DNA of 64,000 nt, taken from the NCBI GenBank assembly GCA_002841495.1, contig PGZV01000001.1, positions 1-64,000 on the forward strand. The letters run 5' to 3'. Made by a program: the position numbers and the translations under genes. Below the pieces are notes generated by a model. It did no database searches. It saw only the letters and a program-made list of their open reading frames with translations, and was not told the origin of the DNA. This DNA comes from Firmicutes bacterium HGW-Firmicutes-2 (GTDB lineage: Bacteria > Bacillota > Clostridia > Lachnospirales > Vallitaleaceae). Position 1 is the stretch's first letter, and each line of letters starts with the position of its first letter. Of the stretch, positions 4,557 through 49,074 are shown in pieces.

Positions 4557-4706
4557 AAAAAAATCTATTCCTGTTAAGAAATAGAAGCGTATCATTCAAC
4601 AATGCGTCTTATTTCTCAGCTTATGCTGTAGGAATTAGCACCATACATGTATTTGCTGGTTGCCGGGTTTCATAGGGCCTATTCCCTCCACCACTCTTAA
4701 TAAGAT
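4557..4706 (-). promoter_or_regulatory. SAM-I (S-box) riboswitch with terminator
   Basis: Read on the minus strand, the aptamer runs from about 4706 to 4607. P1 pairs TCTTATT (4705-4699) with AATAAGA (4613-4607). The core contains the S-box signatures AGAGTGGTGGAGGGA, GGCCCTATGAAACCCGGCAA and the downstream GGTGCTAATTCCTACAGC and GCTGAG segments. A terminator hairpin with a poly-T tract follows at 4588-4557, upstream of the sulfhydrylase start. By family knowledge, high S-adenosylmethionine favours termination. Confidence 0.95.
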
Positions 4707-44728: not shown

Positions 44729-46423
44729 ATGAATTTTAACGATTATGAATATAAGAGAATAGATCTTGATGAAGTCAAAATAGCGATGGATAAGCAATTT
44801 GCCATCATGGATGAGGCAACATCTATAGATGAACTGGATGTAGCCATTAAAGAAGTTTATAGAATCCGAAATGAAGTGGAGACCATGAGTACGATAGCCA
44901 GTATTCGATTCTCCATTAACATGAAAGATGAGTTCTACAAGGCGGAAAACGATTATCAAAACAGCGCAAGCCCAATTATGGAAGGTATCGTTCACAAGTT
45001 CTATCAAAAGCTGGTCCAGTCACCTATGCAAATGGAAATCAAAGCCCGTTATGGCGAACATCTGATTAATTTGGCAACTTTAGCGGTTAAGACTTTTTCA
45101 GATGATATTATAAAAGACCTACAAGAAGAAAACCGATTAATTACAAGCTATAGCGTGCTTGTAGGTAATGCGAAGATTGATTTTAGAGGCAAAGACTATA
45201 ATCTTTCAACCATGGCACCGTTTATCAGTGATTATGATAGAGCAACTCGAATTGAAGCGCAAAAAGCAGTGACGCGATTTTTTGAAGATCACGAAACTGA
45301 ATTCGATGATATTTATGATAAACTGGTAAAACTAAGGCACAATATAGCGATTAAACTCGGCTATGAGAATTATATCCAGTATGGTTATGATAAACTTCAA
45401 CGTACGGACTACGGACCTTTGGATGTGAAAAAGTTCCGTGATCAGGTTTATGAACATATTACCCCCTTACGGTTAGAGCTTAAGAAGAAACAGGCTAAAC
45501 GTATCGGGTTGGACCACTTCTATTATTATGATGCACCATTGTATTTTAATACAGGCAATCCTAAGCCCGCAGGAGATGAGGCTTATATGGTAGAAGAAGC
45601 AAAGAAAATGTACCATGAATTATCACCCCAGACCCATGATTTTTTTGATTATATGATTGAAAATAACCTTATGGATTTGGCCAGCCGTGACGGAAAGAGA
45701 CCGGGCGGTTATTGCACGTATATGTCCGATTACAAAGCACCCTATATATTTGCTAACTTTAATGGTACTGACCATGATGTCGTGGTGTTGACTCATGAAG
45801 CCGGTCATGCTTTCCAAGTGTTTCAAAGTCGAGGGTATGAAGTTAGTGAGTATCAATTTCCTACATTAGAGGCTTGTGAGATTCACTCCATGAGTATGGA
45901 GTATTTGACTTATCCGTGGATGAAGCATTTTTTTGGAGAAGATCATGAGAAGTTTATCTATGATCATTCAAGTAAACCTATAGAATTTATACCTTATGGT
46001 GTTGCAGTCGATGAGTTTCAACACTGGGTATATGAATATCCACATGCTACGCCGGATCAAAGAAAGCAAAAATGGCTGGAGATTGATCATAAATACAGAC
46101 CGGAGATTGATTATGAAGACAATGACTTTCTTAAACGTGGTGGTTATTGGTTCAGACAGGGTCATATTTTTAGAGTACCATTTTATTACATAGACTATAC
46201 ATTAGCACTTATTTGTGCCGTACAGTTCTATGTGAAATCAACCCAAGATCGTAAAAAGGCATGGGATGATTACTTGAACCTATGTAACCAAGGTGGTAGT
46301 CAGTCATTCTTAAGACTGCTAGAGTCAGCAGATCTGGATAATCCTTTTTATGATGGTACAGTCCAAAAAGTCATCTATAAAGTATGGACACTCTTAAATT
46401 CAATTGATGATACCAAATTATAG
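44729..46423 (+). CDS. M3 family oligoendopeptidase
   Basis: About 564 residues, the typical length for the PepF/M3B group. The zinc motif is VLTHEAGHAFQVFQS, and the downstream glutamate helix is FPTLEACEIHSMSMEYLTYP. The active-site Tyr/His region RQGHIFRVPFYYIDYTLA is present. There is no signal peptide, so it degrades peptides in the cytosol. ATG 44729 follows GAGAGGTGC. Confidence 0.93.
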   Translation: MNFNDYEYKRIDLDEVKIAMDKQFAIMDEATSIDELDVAIKEVYRIRNEVETMSTIASIRFSINMKDEFYKAENDYQNSASPIMEGIVHKFYQKLVQSPMQMEIKARYGEHLINLATLAVKTFSDDIIKDLQEENRLITSYSVLVGNAKIDFRGKDYNLSTMAPFISDYDRATRIEAQKAVTRFFEDHETEFDDIYDKLVKLRHNIAIKLGYENYIQYGYDKLQRTDYGPLDVKKFRDQVYEHITPLRLELKKKQAKRIGLDHFYYYDAPLYFNTGNPKPAGDEAYMVEEAKKMYHELSPQTHDFFDYMIENNLMDLASRDGKRPGGYCTYMSDYKAPYIFANFNGTDHDVVVLTHEAGHAFQVFQSRGYEVSEYQFPTLEACEIHSMSMEYLTYPWMKHFFGEDHEKFIYDHSSKPIEFIPYGVAVDEFQHWVYEYPHATPDQRKQKWLEIDHKYRPEIDYEDNDFLKRGGYWFRQGHIFRVPFYYIDYTLALICAVQFYVKSTQDRKKAWDDYLNLCNQGGSQSFLRLLESADLDNPFYDGTVQKVIYKVWTLLNSIDDTKL

Positions 46424-46512
46424 CTAGGAAAGTAGAAATTTTTTCAAAATGAAGTAAGGAACTGGTATAGTTGCAAATCAGATGACATTTAATAGGAAGA
46501 GAGTCGATAAGT

Positions 46513-46558
46513 AAACCCATTAACCCAGTATAAAAACTTGGCTAATGGGTTTGTTTTT
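46513..46558 (+). terminator. terminator after the oligoendopeptidase
   Basis: AAACCCATTA pairs with TAATGGGTTT, with an inner CCCAG/CTTGG stem, followed by a T-rich tract. Confidence 0.85.
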
Positions 46559-46588
46559 GATAAAGATGCAAAGATGAAGTAAATTCAC

Positions 46589-46668
46589 TTGCAAAACAAG
46601 GTTGGTTGTGCTATTATTTTAGATGAATACAATATTATATGAGACCAGATAGTTAATTAATTAACTAT
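46589..46668 (+). promoter_or_regulatory. promoter and 20-bp palindrome upstream of the DUF4914-like gene
   Basis: TTGCAA (46589-46594), a 17-base spacer and TATTAT (46612-46617) imply a start near 46624, giving a leader of more than 500 bases. A perfect palindrome ATAGTTAATTAATTAACTAT covers 46649-46668 and could be an operator or a hairpin. Confidence 0.5.
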
Positions 46669-46860
46669 AGATTCAAGTCAAAGGTTAGTGTGTTTTTGCC
46701 ATAAGTTTGTCGAATATTGAGTGTTTTTTAGAAAAAGTACACATTAAAAATTTGGTCCGATAAAAGAATGACTGGAATAAAGACTATGAATTCCTCTGAA
46801 ACTTATAAATTATTACTAGAAGCAAATAATATGAAAAATGAATTTTAATTTTATAAAACT

Positions 46861-46957
46861 TGCAAAAACGGAGAATGCAATAATTCTAAGAATCGATATG
46901 ACAGGTAGTAAGGTTGCCACTTAGTCAGACGTACATAGTTTGACAAGGGCTTTTTTT
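46861..46957 (+). promoter_or_regulatory. structured leader with attenuator terminator, possible riboswitch
   Basis: The terminator stem runs from GCC at 46916 to GGC at 46950: GTCAGAC (46924-46930) pairs perfectly with GTTTGAC (46938-46944), extended outward with two bulges, then T7. The segment GGTAGTAAGGTTGCC (46904-46918) and the preceding TTCTAAG resemble the 3' half of the c-di-GMP-I (GEMM) aptamer, but its GACGCAAAGC core is missing or altered. The terminator reuses GCC of that segment, as riboswitch expression platforms do. The ligand is not assigned. From 46958 to the gene no further structure is evident. Confidence 0.5.
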
Positions 46958-47148
46958 CTATAAATGATGTATCAAATTAATGAGCGGTAACATTCAGGAT
47001 GATGTAGATCAGACCTGTTATAGGGTTAAAGGATTAAACTAAGTAGTTTTAACACTTTATCCCAATATATAAACATGTTGTAGAAAACAAAATATATGAT
47101 GCAATGGAAGTGGTATTAGACCACGACACATTATTCAAGGAGGATCAC

Positions 47149-49020
47149 ATGAGTAAAAACGTATTGTCAAAGTTTAGATTTGATGAAAACGCAGCGGACA
47201 TAGTTGCAAACGCAAAGTCGGTTATTGTTCCTGACAGTAGAGCCCATATCTTGGACATGGCAACAGGAAATGGTCAACAGATTTTTAAAGTGAGCTATGA
47301 AGTAGAAGGATTAGGACTTATTGATGAAGCAGAGGTTGTTCGTTGTAAAAATGGTGTATCGGTCAATTATTTGGAATCTTATATGCGAAGAAGAGATCCT
47401 AACTGTATGTATATAGGTGATGACCTACCAACGGATAAATTAACGTACAAAGAGAAGTTCGGTGAAAGTTTTAATGATGTTCGTCAAGAAACATTTGAGT
47501 GGCTAAAGACCCAAGACTTGATTGTACTACCTTTTATCTCAGGAGATGCAAAACATGGTGGCTATGAGTCTATACTCATCGGACCTAAAAATGCAGCATT
47601 TTTTACCGGTGGTCTGGCAGATCTTCAAGGTTTTATACCTGCGGATGAAGTAAGAGACGGTTTTGAACCTAAAGCAGTCATTTATCTTGCGCCTGTATTT
47701 AGACATACGCACTATGACGGTAAACAAGTCGTTGTGCATAACCGTTTAGAAAACCTTCATGAAGTTTATTCTTTCAATTTATATCCTGGACCAAGTGCTA
47801 AAAAAGGCGTTTATGGTATATTGCTCTCTATCGGTGAGAAAGAAGGTTGGATTACTGCTCATGCTTCAACGGTTCGTGTAACCACACCTTATGATAACTC
47901 CGTTGTTATTATGCACGAAGGTGCCAGTGGTGGTGGTAAATCTGAGATGATTGAAGAAGTACATCGCGAGTCGGATGGTAGTGTCTTGTTAGGTGTGGAT
48001 CTAATTACTGAAGACAGTATATATCTAGAACTTGGTGATACATGTGAGTTGCATCCGGTTACAGACGACATGGCATTATGCCACCCATCTTATCAAAATG
48101 GGAGCAAGCTTGTTGTTACGGATGCAGAAGCGGGTTGGTTTTTAAGATTTGATCATATTAAAGAATACGGTACATCTATCGAACATGAAAAATTGACCAT
48201 ACATCCACCTGAGCCGTTGATTTTCCTTAATATGGATGGTGCTCCGGATTCTACAGTACTCATATGGGAACATAAGATGGATGCTCCTGGATCTCCTTGT
48301 CCAAATCCAAGAGTTATTATGCCTAGACATTTTGTTCCTGATGTTATTTCTGACCCAGTTGAGGTTGATATTCGTTCCTTTGGTGTTCGTATGCCCCCTC
48401 TTACAAAAGACAAAATCACTTATGGTATCGTAGGGTTGTTACATATATTACCACCGGCACTTGCTTGGTTATGGCGTCTTGTAGCTCCTAGAGGACATGC
48501 AAACCCAAGTATTGTAGACACGGGCGGTATGAGTAGCGAAGGCGTTGGTTCTTACTGGCCTTTTGCAACAGGAAAAATGGTTACACAGGCCAATCTCTTG
48601 CTAGAGCAGATTCAAAATACACCCAATACGAAGTATGTTTTGATTCCAAATCAACATATTGGTTCTTTTAAAGTCGGCTTTATTGCAGAATGGTTAGACC
48701 GTGAGTACCTGGCAAGAAAAGGTAGTGCCAAATTCCGACCCGAGCAATTGGTGGTATCAAGATGTTCTACCCTTGGCTACTCACCAAAATCACTTAGAAT
48801 AGATGGTCACAATATACCTAAAGGTCTGTTACGCACGAACCATCAGATCAATATCGGGGATGAAGCTTATGACGCGGGTGCAAAACTTCTTACAGACTTC
48901 TTTAAGCGAGAGCTTGTTAAGTATAACACCGAGGAGTTGAATCCACTTGGAAGACAGATTATTGATGCCTATATGCGTGATGCGACAGTTGAAGAACTTG
49001 AAGCACTTATGCCAATGTAA
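47149..49020 (+). CDS. DUF4914-like P-loop protein with PEP-carboxykinase flavour
   Basis: About 623 residues from ATG 47149, preceded by CAAGGAGGA. A Walker A loop EGASGGGKSE lies at about residues 257-266, placed and shaped somewhat like the kinase loop of ATP-dependent PEP carboxykinase, but the rest of the PEPCK signatures are not evident. Other conserved-looking stretches are APVFRHTHYDGKQ, LNMDGAPDS, MPRHFV and DTGGMSSEGVGSYWPFATGKMV. I recall such proteins as DUF4914, a family without a known activity. It is soluble with no signal. A long attenuator leader precedes it and a terminator follows, so it is a regulated single gene. Confidence 0.82.
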   Translation: MSKNVLSKFRFDENAADIVANAKSVIVPDSRAHILDMATGNGQQIFKVSYEVEGLGLIDEAEVVRCKNGVSVNYLESYMRRRDPNCMYIGDDLPTDKLTYKEKFGESFNDVRQETFEWLKTQDLIVLPFISGDAKHGGYESILIGPKNAAFFTGGLADLQGFIPADEVRDGFEPKAVIYLAPVFRHTHYDGKQVVVHNRLENLHEVYSFNLYPGPSAKKGVYGILLSIGEKEGWITAHASTVRVTTPYDNSVVIMHEGASGGGKSEMIEEVHRESDGSVLLGVDLITEDSIYLELGDTCELHPVTDDMALCHPSYQNGSKLVVTDAEAGWFLRFDHIKEYGTSIEHEKLTIHPPEPLIFLNMDGAPDSTVLIWEHKMDAPGSPCPNPRVIMPRHFVPDVISDPVEVDIRSFGVRMPPLTKDKITYGIVGLLHILPPALAWLWRLVAPRGHANPSIVDTGGMSSEGVGSYWPFATGKMVTQANLLLEQIQNTPNTKYVLIPNQHIGSFKVGFIAEWLDREYLARKGSAKFRPEQLVVSRCSTLGYSPKSLRIDGHNIPKGLLRTNHQINIGDEAYDAGAKLLTDFFKRELVKYNTEELNPLGRQIIDAYMRDATVEELEALMPM

Positions 49021-49039: not shown

Positions 49040-49074
49040 GAAGCTACAGGCCTTAGGGTTTGTAGCTTCTTTTT
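49040..49074 (+). terminator. terminator after the DUF4914-like gene
   Basis: GAAGCTACA pairs with TGTAGCTTC, followed by a T-run. Confidence 0.9.

Follow-up and report, generated by a model that had tools for sequence, protein, structure and literature searches.

The window, the 64 kb stretch of DNA analysed here, contains a gene for a large protein behind a leader of unusual length. Two questions arise from this arrangement: which reaction the protein catalyses, and how its expression is controlled. The original prediction placed the protein, tentatively, in phosphoenolpyruvate (PEP)/oxaloacetate metabolism and described its leader as regulatory.

Gene, predicted fold and active site

The 623 aa product has a single Pfam match, PF16260 (DUF4914; 1037 bits), and carries the P-loop HEGASGGGKSEM at residues 258–265, which agrees with its earlier description as a large uncharacterized protein with a kinase-type loop. 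NCBIfam gives the protein no name, and no function for the family is found in the openly accessible literature searched. The ATG start codon at 47149 is preceded by AAGGAGG. In the window the gene is flanked by an M3 peptidase gene on one side and sfsA on the other, and it forms a single transcription unit with its own promoter and its own terminator (Table 1). The transcript probably starts near 46624, giving a leader of ~520 nt, so that a single gene behind a leader of more than 500 bases is indeed present. In all, 80 DUF4914 genes were collected; the family occurs in Clostridia and also in records named Spirochaetales, Thermotogae, Bacteroidales and others. A decayed copy, with more than 12 stop codons and in three pieces, lies at G118:C1:1076688-1078554.

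Table 1. Features of the DUF4914 locus, in window coordinates
Feature	Position	Strand	Evidence or remark
GGAAGA and GTAAACC terminator hairpin, between M3 peptidase gene and DUF4914 promoter	46492..46555	+	Weak R1 match
Promoter TTGCAA, 17, TATTAT, extended −10	46589..46617	+	95–97% identity in genus
Perfect 20-bp palindrome ATAGTTAATTAATTAACTAT, hairpin or operator	46649..46668	.	Window palindrome count and genus conservation
Long-range helix, 5′ strand GTTTTTGC	46692..46699	+	Consensus fold; pairs with 46862–46869
Small ORF in leader, MNFNFIKLAKTENAIILRIDMTGSKVAT	46838..46924		Ends inside terminator stem
Long-range helix, 3′ strand GCAAAAAC	46862..46869	+	Consensus fold; inside stretch earlier read as c-di-GMP-I aptamer
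Intrinsic terminator in leader	46916..46957	+	Stem 46916–46950, then seven T at 46951–46957
Imperfect palindrome, about 45 nt, inserted in this species' leader only	47023..47066	.	Absent from three relatives
DUF4914 gene, 623 aa, predicted PEPCK-fold protein	47149..49020	+	PF16260 1037 bits, structure, alignments
Terminator 3′ of DUF4914 stop	about 49040..49074	+	GAAGCTAC..GTAGCTTC TTTTT, read from sequence

AlphaFold2, given 59 homologues, predicts the structure with confidence throughout (pLDDT 91.9, pTM 0.90). The model was compared with known structures by Foldseek and VIA-align, and all 50 of the entries listed in the structure search are structures of PEP carboxykinase (PEPCK), which catalyses the gain or loss of CO2 at PEP. 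The best match is the PPi-PEPCK of Propionibacterium freudenreichii (8e1u; Z 31.5, 573 residues aligned, 3.3 Å, VIA-align; see also 6k31), which has about 1110 residues against 623 in DUF4914. The ATP-PEPCKs (PF01293; Thermus thermophilus 2pc9, E. coli 1ayl) are also alike in fold over the full length, with 2pc9 at Z 31.0, and the GTP-PEPCKs (PF00821 and PF17297) match at Z about 26. The similarity of the model to PEPCKs thus extends to the N-terminal PEPCK domain.

At the sequence level the relationship is distant. Identity to PEPCKs is 12–18% (14–17% for ATP-PEPCK, 12–16% for GTP-PEPCK), the PF01293 and PF00821 models do not match DUF4914, and a family profile finds nothing at E≤1 among PDB sequences, PPi-PEPCK included. 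Alignment by hhalign with single PEPCKs reaches E about 0.002. With ATP-PEPCK it pairs the KK, H and P-loop motifs (LYPGPSAKKG with LYMGEIKKA, HAST with HCSAN, and GASGGGKSEM with GLSGTGKTTL), and with GTP-PEPCK it pairs VTDDMA with VGDDIAW and CPNPR with HPNSR. Active-site residues were mapped from single-template alignments and from the residue roles of the E. coli and rat enzymes. The mapped positions are R81/R82, Y212, K218/K219, H238, the P-loop (258–265), D306/D307 and R388, which we take to be the substrate-binding arginines, the lysine, histidine and aspartate metal ligands, and the P-loop. R81, Y212, K218, K219, H238, S260, K264, S265, D306, D307 and R388 do not vary among the 59 sequences; the family thus has the catalytic set of a substrate arginine, a tyrosine, the KK pair, a histidine, S/K/T(S) in the P-loop, the DD pair and a second arginine.

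On the fold match and the aligned invariant motifs, DUF4914 is placed in the PEPCK superfamily, apart from PF01293 and PF00821, and as judged from the modelled fold and active site this membership is almost certain. DUF4914 is an undescribed family with a predicted PEPCK fold, distinct as a class from ATP- and GTP-PEPCK. By its predicted reaction it is probably a new class of PEPCK. The comparison with PEPCK structures suggested in the original prediction, with its full-length match at Z 31 and catalytic residues invariant in 59 homologues, therefore lends good support to the guess of a role in PEP/oxaloacetate metabolism.

The leader in the genus of the window

The leader was compared between the window species and three relatives of the same genus (G001–G003). 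From the promoter to 46966 it is 80–97% identical across the four species with at most three gap positions: 95–97% in the promoter, 80–91% from there to 46859, and 90–93% at 46860–46966 (0–3 gap positions). The corresponding figures are 62–67% at third codon positions of DUF4914 and 61–75% over the DNA that separates the M3 peptidase gene from its terminator. The excess over third codon positions indicates that selection acts on an RNA of ~335 nt together with its promoter and terminator.

Several elements are conserved within this RNA. The 20-bp palindrome, correctly recognized in the original prediction, is perfect and has no equal in length elsewhere in the window, a shuffled copy of which would yield 0.1 on average; two of the three relatives have it unchanged, and the third differs in a single base at one end. 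A TTGCAA/TGCAAA operator near DUF4914 promoters was also considered and was rejected, TGCAAG being only mildly enriched. The long-range helix of GTTTTTGC with GCAAAAAC is conserved with one G–U variant, four such close sequences being too few for covariation to prove this or other structure in the leader. The strong terminator, likewise predicted, is found between the promoter and the start codon; its hairpin (46916–46950) has a folding energy of −15.8 kcal/mol, and its stem is invariant in the genus except for one wobble. A search for an antiterminator gave one compensatory pair among the four near-identical sequences. The leader as a whole folds only slightly better than shuffled sequences (z −1.6) and the segment 46840–46970 somewhat more so (z −2.3); folding energy alone is weak evidence for the leader. 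Parts of the insertion found in this species match weakly elsewhere in the genome, and it is possibly a small mobile repeat.

The window's leader was not found at DUF4914 genes of other genera, elsewhere in 41 genomes, or on the plasmids searched, and covariance models give no Rfam 15 family at gathering score in 46400–47200. The sole Rfam riboswitch of the window is a SAM-I riboswitch at 4606–4706 on the minus strand (81.9 bits).

These data point to a real, genus-specific, attenuator-type leader, a reading that is probably correct. Transcription would run from the strong promoter through the ~335 nt of conserved RNA to the terminator at 46916–46957. As this intrinsic terminator lies within the leader, expression of DUF4914 would depend on read-through. 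A regulatory, terminator-bearing leader, as originally proposed, is thus supported by conservation and by the terminator, attenuation being the likely mode of control.

Three other readings of the leader have to be weighed against attenuation. The proposal that part of it folds like a c-di-GMP-I aptamer does not hold: across 801 nt of the leader region nothing scores with RF01051 at E≤10, whereas nine genuine c-di-GMP-I riboswitches elsewhere in the genome score 55.7–82.8 bits. The organism uses such riboswitches, and the string GGTAGTAAGGTTGCC resembles the 3′ part of the aptamer; however, this string varies between the four species, and GCAAAAAC pairs with the upstream GTTTTTGC. That DUF4914 is controlled by a c-di-GMP-I riboswitch, or by a degenerate form of one, is scarcely credible. 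Control of the terminator by translation of a leader peptide would fit the small ORF at 46838–46924, whose end falls within the terminator stem and whose frame is open in three of the four species. This too is very improbable, given that two deletions break the frame in L017, that the ORF has no good ribosome site and that substitutions mostly change amino acids. Finally, 46624–46957 might be a free-standing small RNA, with DUF4914 expressed by read-through or from a second promoter. A strong promoter, a conserved body and a strong terminator would suit such an RNA, as would a promoter-like site (TTGACA-17-AATGAT at 46940) that overlaps the terminator. Yet conservation also extends from the terminator down to the start codon (82–88% identity in the genus with the insertion set aside), and no similar RNA was found away from DUF4914 in the 41 genomes, so that we regard a small RNA as rather unlikely.

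A GGAAGAC RNA element at other DUF4914 genes

A k-mer scan of the regions upstream of DUF4914 genes revealed a different element, for which a covariance model, R1, was built and extended to R2. It consists of GGAAGAC, a P1/P2 hairpin, GTAANCC and a terminator, in that order, and searches with R1 and R2 place it upstream of 28 of the 80 genes. The original prediction would have been refuted by other DUF4914 leaders that share no structure, and on this point the answer is divided: the window's leader was not found outside its genus, but a different, strongly covarying element is common to these 28 genes elsewhere. In 36 distinct element sequences, standard pairs make up 96.9% of pair cells and 16 of 19 pairs change on both sides, including all seven of P1/P2, values which no shuffle reaches. 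Because the sequences were aligned by fitting them to the model, the count is biased in its favour, but pairing falls to 43–48% when the strands are shifted by one column. No family in Rfam 15 matches the element, and the openly accessible literature searched contains nothing on a bicarbonate riboswitch, DUF4914, DUF3360 or the GGAAGAC motif. R1 matches in family f18 (32–41 bits, many per genome and on both strands) look like a palindromic repeat unrelated to the element and were excluded.

When 398 genomes were searched for the element without reference to DUF4914, 21 sites were found. DUF4914 lies downstream of nine, directly in two cases and after a 141 aa ORF in seven. Four sites precede an archaeal-type PEP carboxylase, one with a broken frame and then a beta-carbonic anhydrase. 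Five further sites, one each, precede an AIRC-domain (LarB-like) gene with PEP carboxylase, a canonical GTP-PEPCK (genome G258), PurK, CO dehydrogenase epsilon with pyruvate:ferredoxin oxidoreductase, and an AIRC-domain gene with biotin carboxylase; the other three have other genes downstream. The 141 aa ORF, which has no Pfam match, occurs between the element and DUF4914 in one genus (L226:1031-1453, L227–L236), and L033/L034 may contain its counterpart.

The recurring neighbours of the 80 DUF4914 genes are MpsC (PF10057) upstream, PurE, PurK and a DUF3360 membrane protein. In relatives, the element lies between MpsC and DUF4914, PurE, PurK, DUF3360 or PEP carboxylase; in G002, which belongs to the window's own genus, it precedes PEP carboxylase. 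The slot behind MpsC and the element is mostly occupied by DUF4914, and otherwise by PEP carboxylase, canonical GTP-PEPCK (as in G258) or PurK. The presence of canonical PEPCK and PEP carboxylase in the slot of DUF4914 gives independent support for a PEP-carboxylating role. MpsABC is a bicarbonate transport locus of Staphylococcus, and about one in four DUF4914 loci has an MpsC homologue upstream of the gene; in contrast, the window's genome has no MpsC. The value of MpsC as proof of bicarbonate transport is weakened because in S. aureus it is dispensable for MpsAB function (PMC6689103). DUF3360, which models as a UraA/SLC26/SLC4-type transporter (pLDDT 81.5), is a candidate bicarbonate transporter. 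The loci where it adjoins DUF4914 or follows the RNA element are L036, L037, L042, L045, L050, L057, L061, L076, L078 and L202.

In L175 and L176 MpsC is reduced to remnants while the element and the downstream DUF4914 gene are intact, which shows that the element is more than the 3′ end of MpsC. In one locus a further copy (L208:991-1070) precedes MpsC itself, so that MpsC may also be under regulation.

Copies of the element upstream of CO2/bicarbonate genes of unrelated families, DUF4914 among them, include L061:3658-3737, L206:1878-1960, L199:1862-1946, L224, L231 and L239 (alignment A9). The association of the element with genes for CO2/HCO3− is well supported, and these substrates, rather than PEP, appear to be the theme that its genes share. 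In clades other than the genus of the window, DUF4914 would then be part of a CO2/bicarbonate regulon marked by the GGAAGAC element. The element may act as a riboswitch, or a protein, for instance MpsC, may bind to it. It is possible, and is put forward tentatively, that the element is a new riboswitch or RNA-binding-protein target for CO2/bicarbonate or a proxy, that DUF4914 is the PEPCK of the regulon, and that the genus of the window has swapped in its own leader for the same or a related signal. Such an element would tie together CO2/bicarbonate-consuming genes of unrelated families, and it makes RNA sensing of CO2/HCO3− in bacteria directly testable.

The window's genome contains no proper GGAAGAC element in the R1 and R2 searches. 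R2 gives no match in the window at E≤0.1, and the best R1 match there, at 46492–46555, is weak (16.1 bits, E 0.11). It comprises GGAAGA, without the P1/P2 hairpin, followed by GTAAACC and a terminator (−17.5 kcal/mol); the GGAAGA stretch, TAATAGGAAGAGAGTC, is invariant in all four genus members. This may be a relic of the CO2-regulon element that now only terminates the upstream gene, in which case the genus-specific promoter and leader would have taken over control.

PEPCK distribution and the probable reaction of DUF4914

By profile search, the window's genome encodes neither ATP-PEPCK (PF01293) nor GTP-PEPCK (PF00821), and it has no archaeal-type PEP carboxylase. Canonical PEPCK is present in seven of 59 relatives, one of which also has DUF4914 (p 0.04, a statistic that ignores phylogeny). 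Among 398 genomes of the phylum, ATP-PEPCK occurs in eight of the 40 with DUF4914 versus 156 of the 358 others (p 0.004, phylogeny again ignored), so that the two tend to avoid one another. DUF4914 and canonical PEPCK are encoded together in some genomes, such as G009; this co-occurrence, like that in eight of 40, indicates that DUF4914 need not be a mere substitute.

Some proteins with the PEPCK fold, such as HPr kinase, phosphorylate other substrates. DUF4914 might likewise combine the fold with a different reaction, for instance as a kinase or decarboxylase of some other oxo-acid, or as a regulatory kinase like HPr kinase. The low identity to all PEPCKs, the presence of DUF4914 beside canonical PEPCK in some genomes and its occurrence in two copies in G019, G046 and G397 would be in keeping with this. 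However, the match spans the full length, N-terminal PEPCK domain included; R81, K218/K219, H238, D307 and R388, the ligands of substrate and metal, are invariant; and canonical GTP-PEPCK and PEP carboxylase replace DUF4914 behind the same RNA element. A different reaction is therefore unlikely.

As a PEPCK, DUF4914 would interconvert PEP plus CO2 and oxaloacetate, with the phosphoryl donor bound at the P-loop, and would serve anaerobes in which the ATP- and GTP-dependent enzymes are often missing. The exchange of PEP and oxaloacetate is a central node of anaerobic metabolism; if the assignment is correct, DUF4914 supplies the missing PEPCK in many of its carriers and adds a new class. An enzyme of the PEPCK class, controlled by an attenuator leader in the genus of the window and belonging to a CO2/bicarbonate regulon elsewhere, is the joint explanation that we favour and hold to be fairly probable.

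A second PEPCK-like protein, of about 555–580 aa and with a weak PEPCK_ATP match (57–73 bits), is widespread in relatives (G005, G007, G008, G011, G013, G015 and 11 more genomes). It may represent yet another divergent PEPCK-like family.
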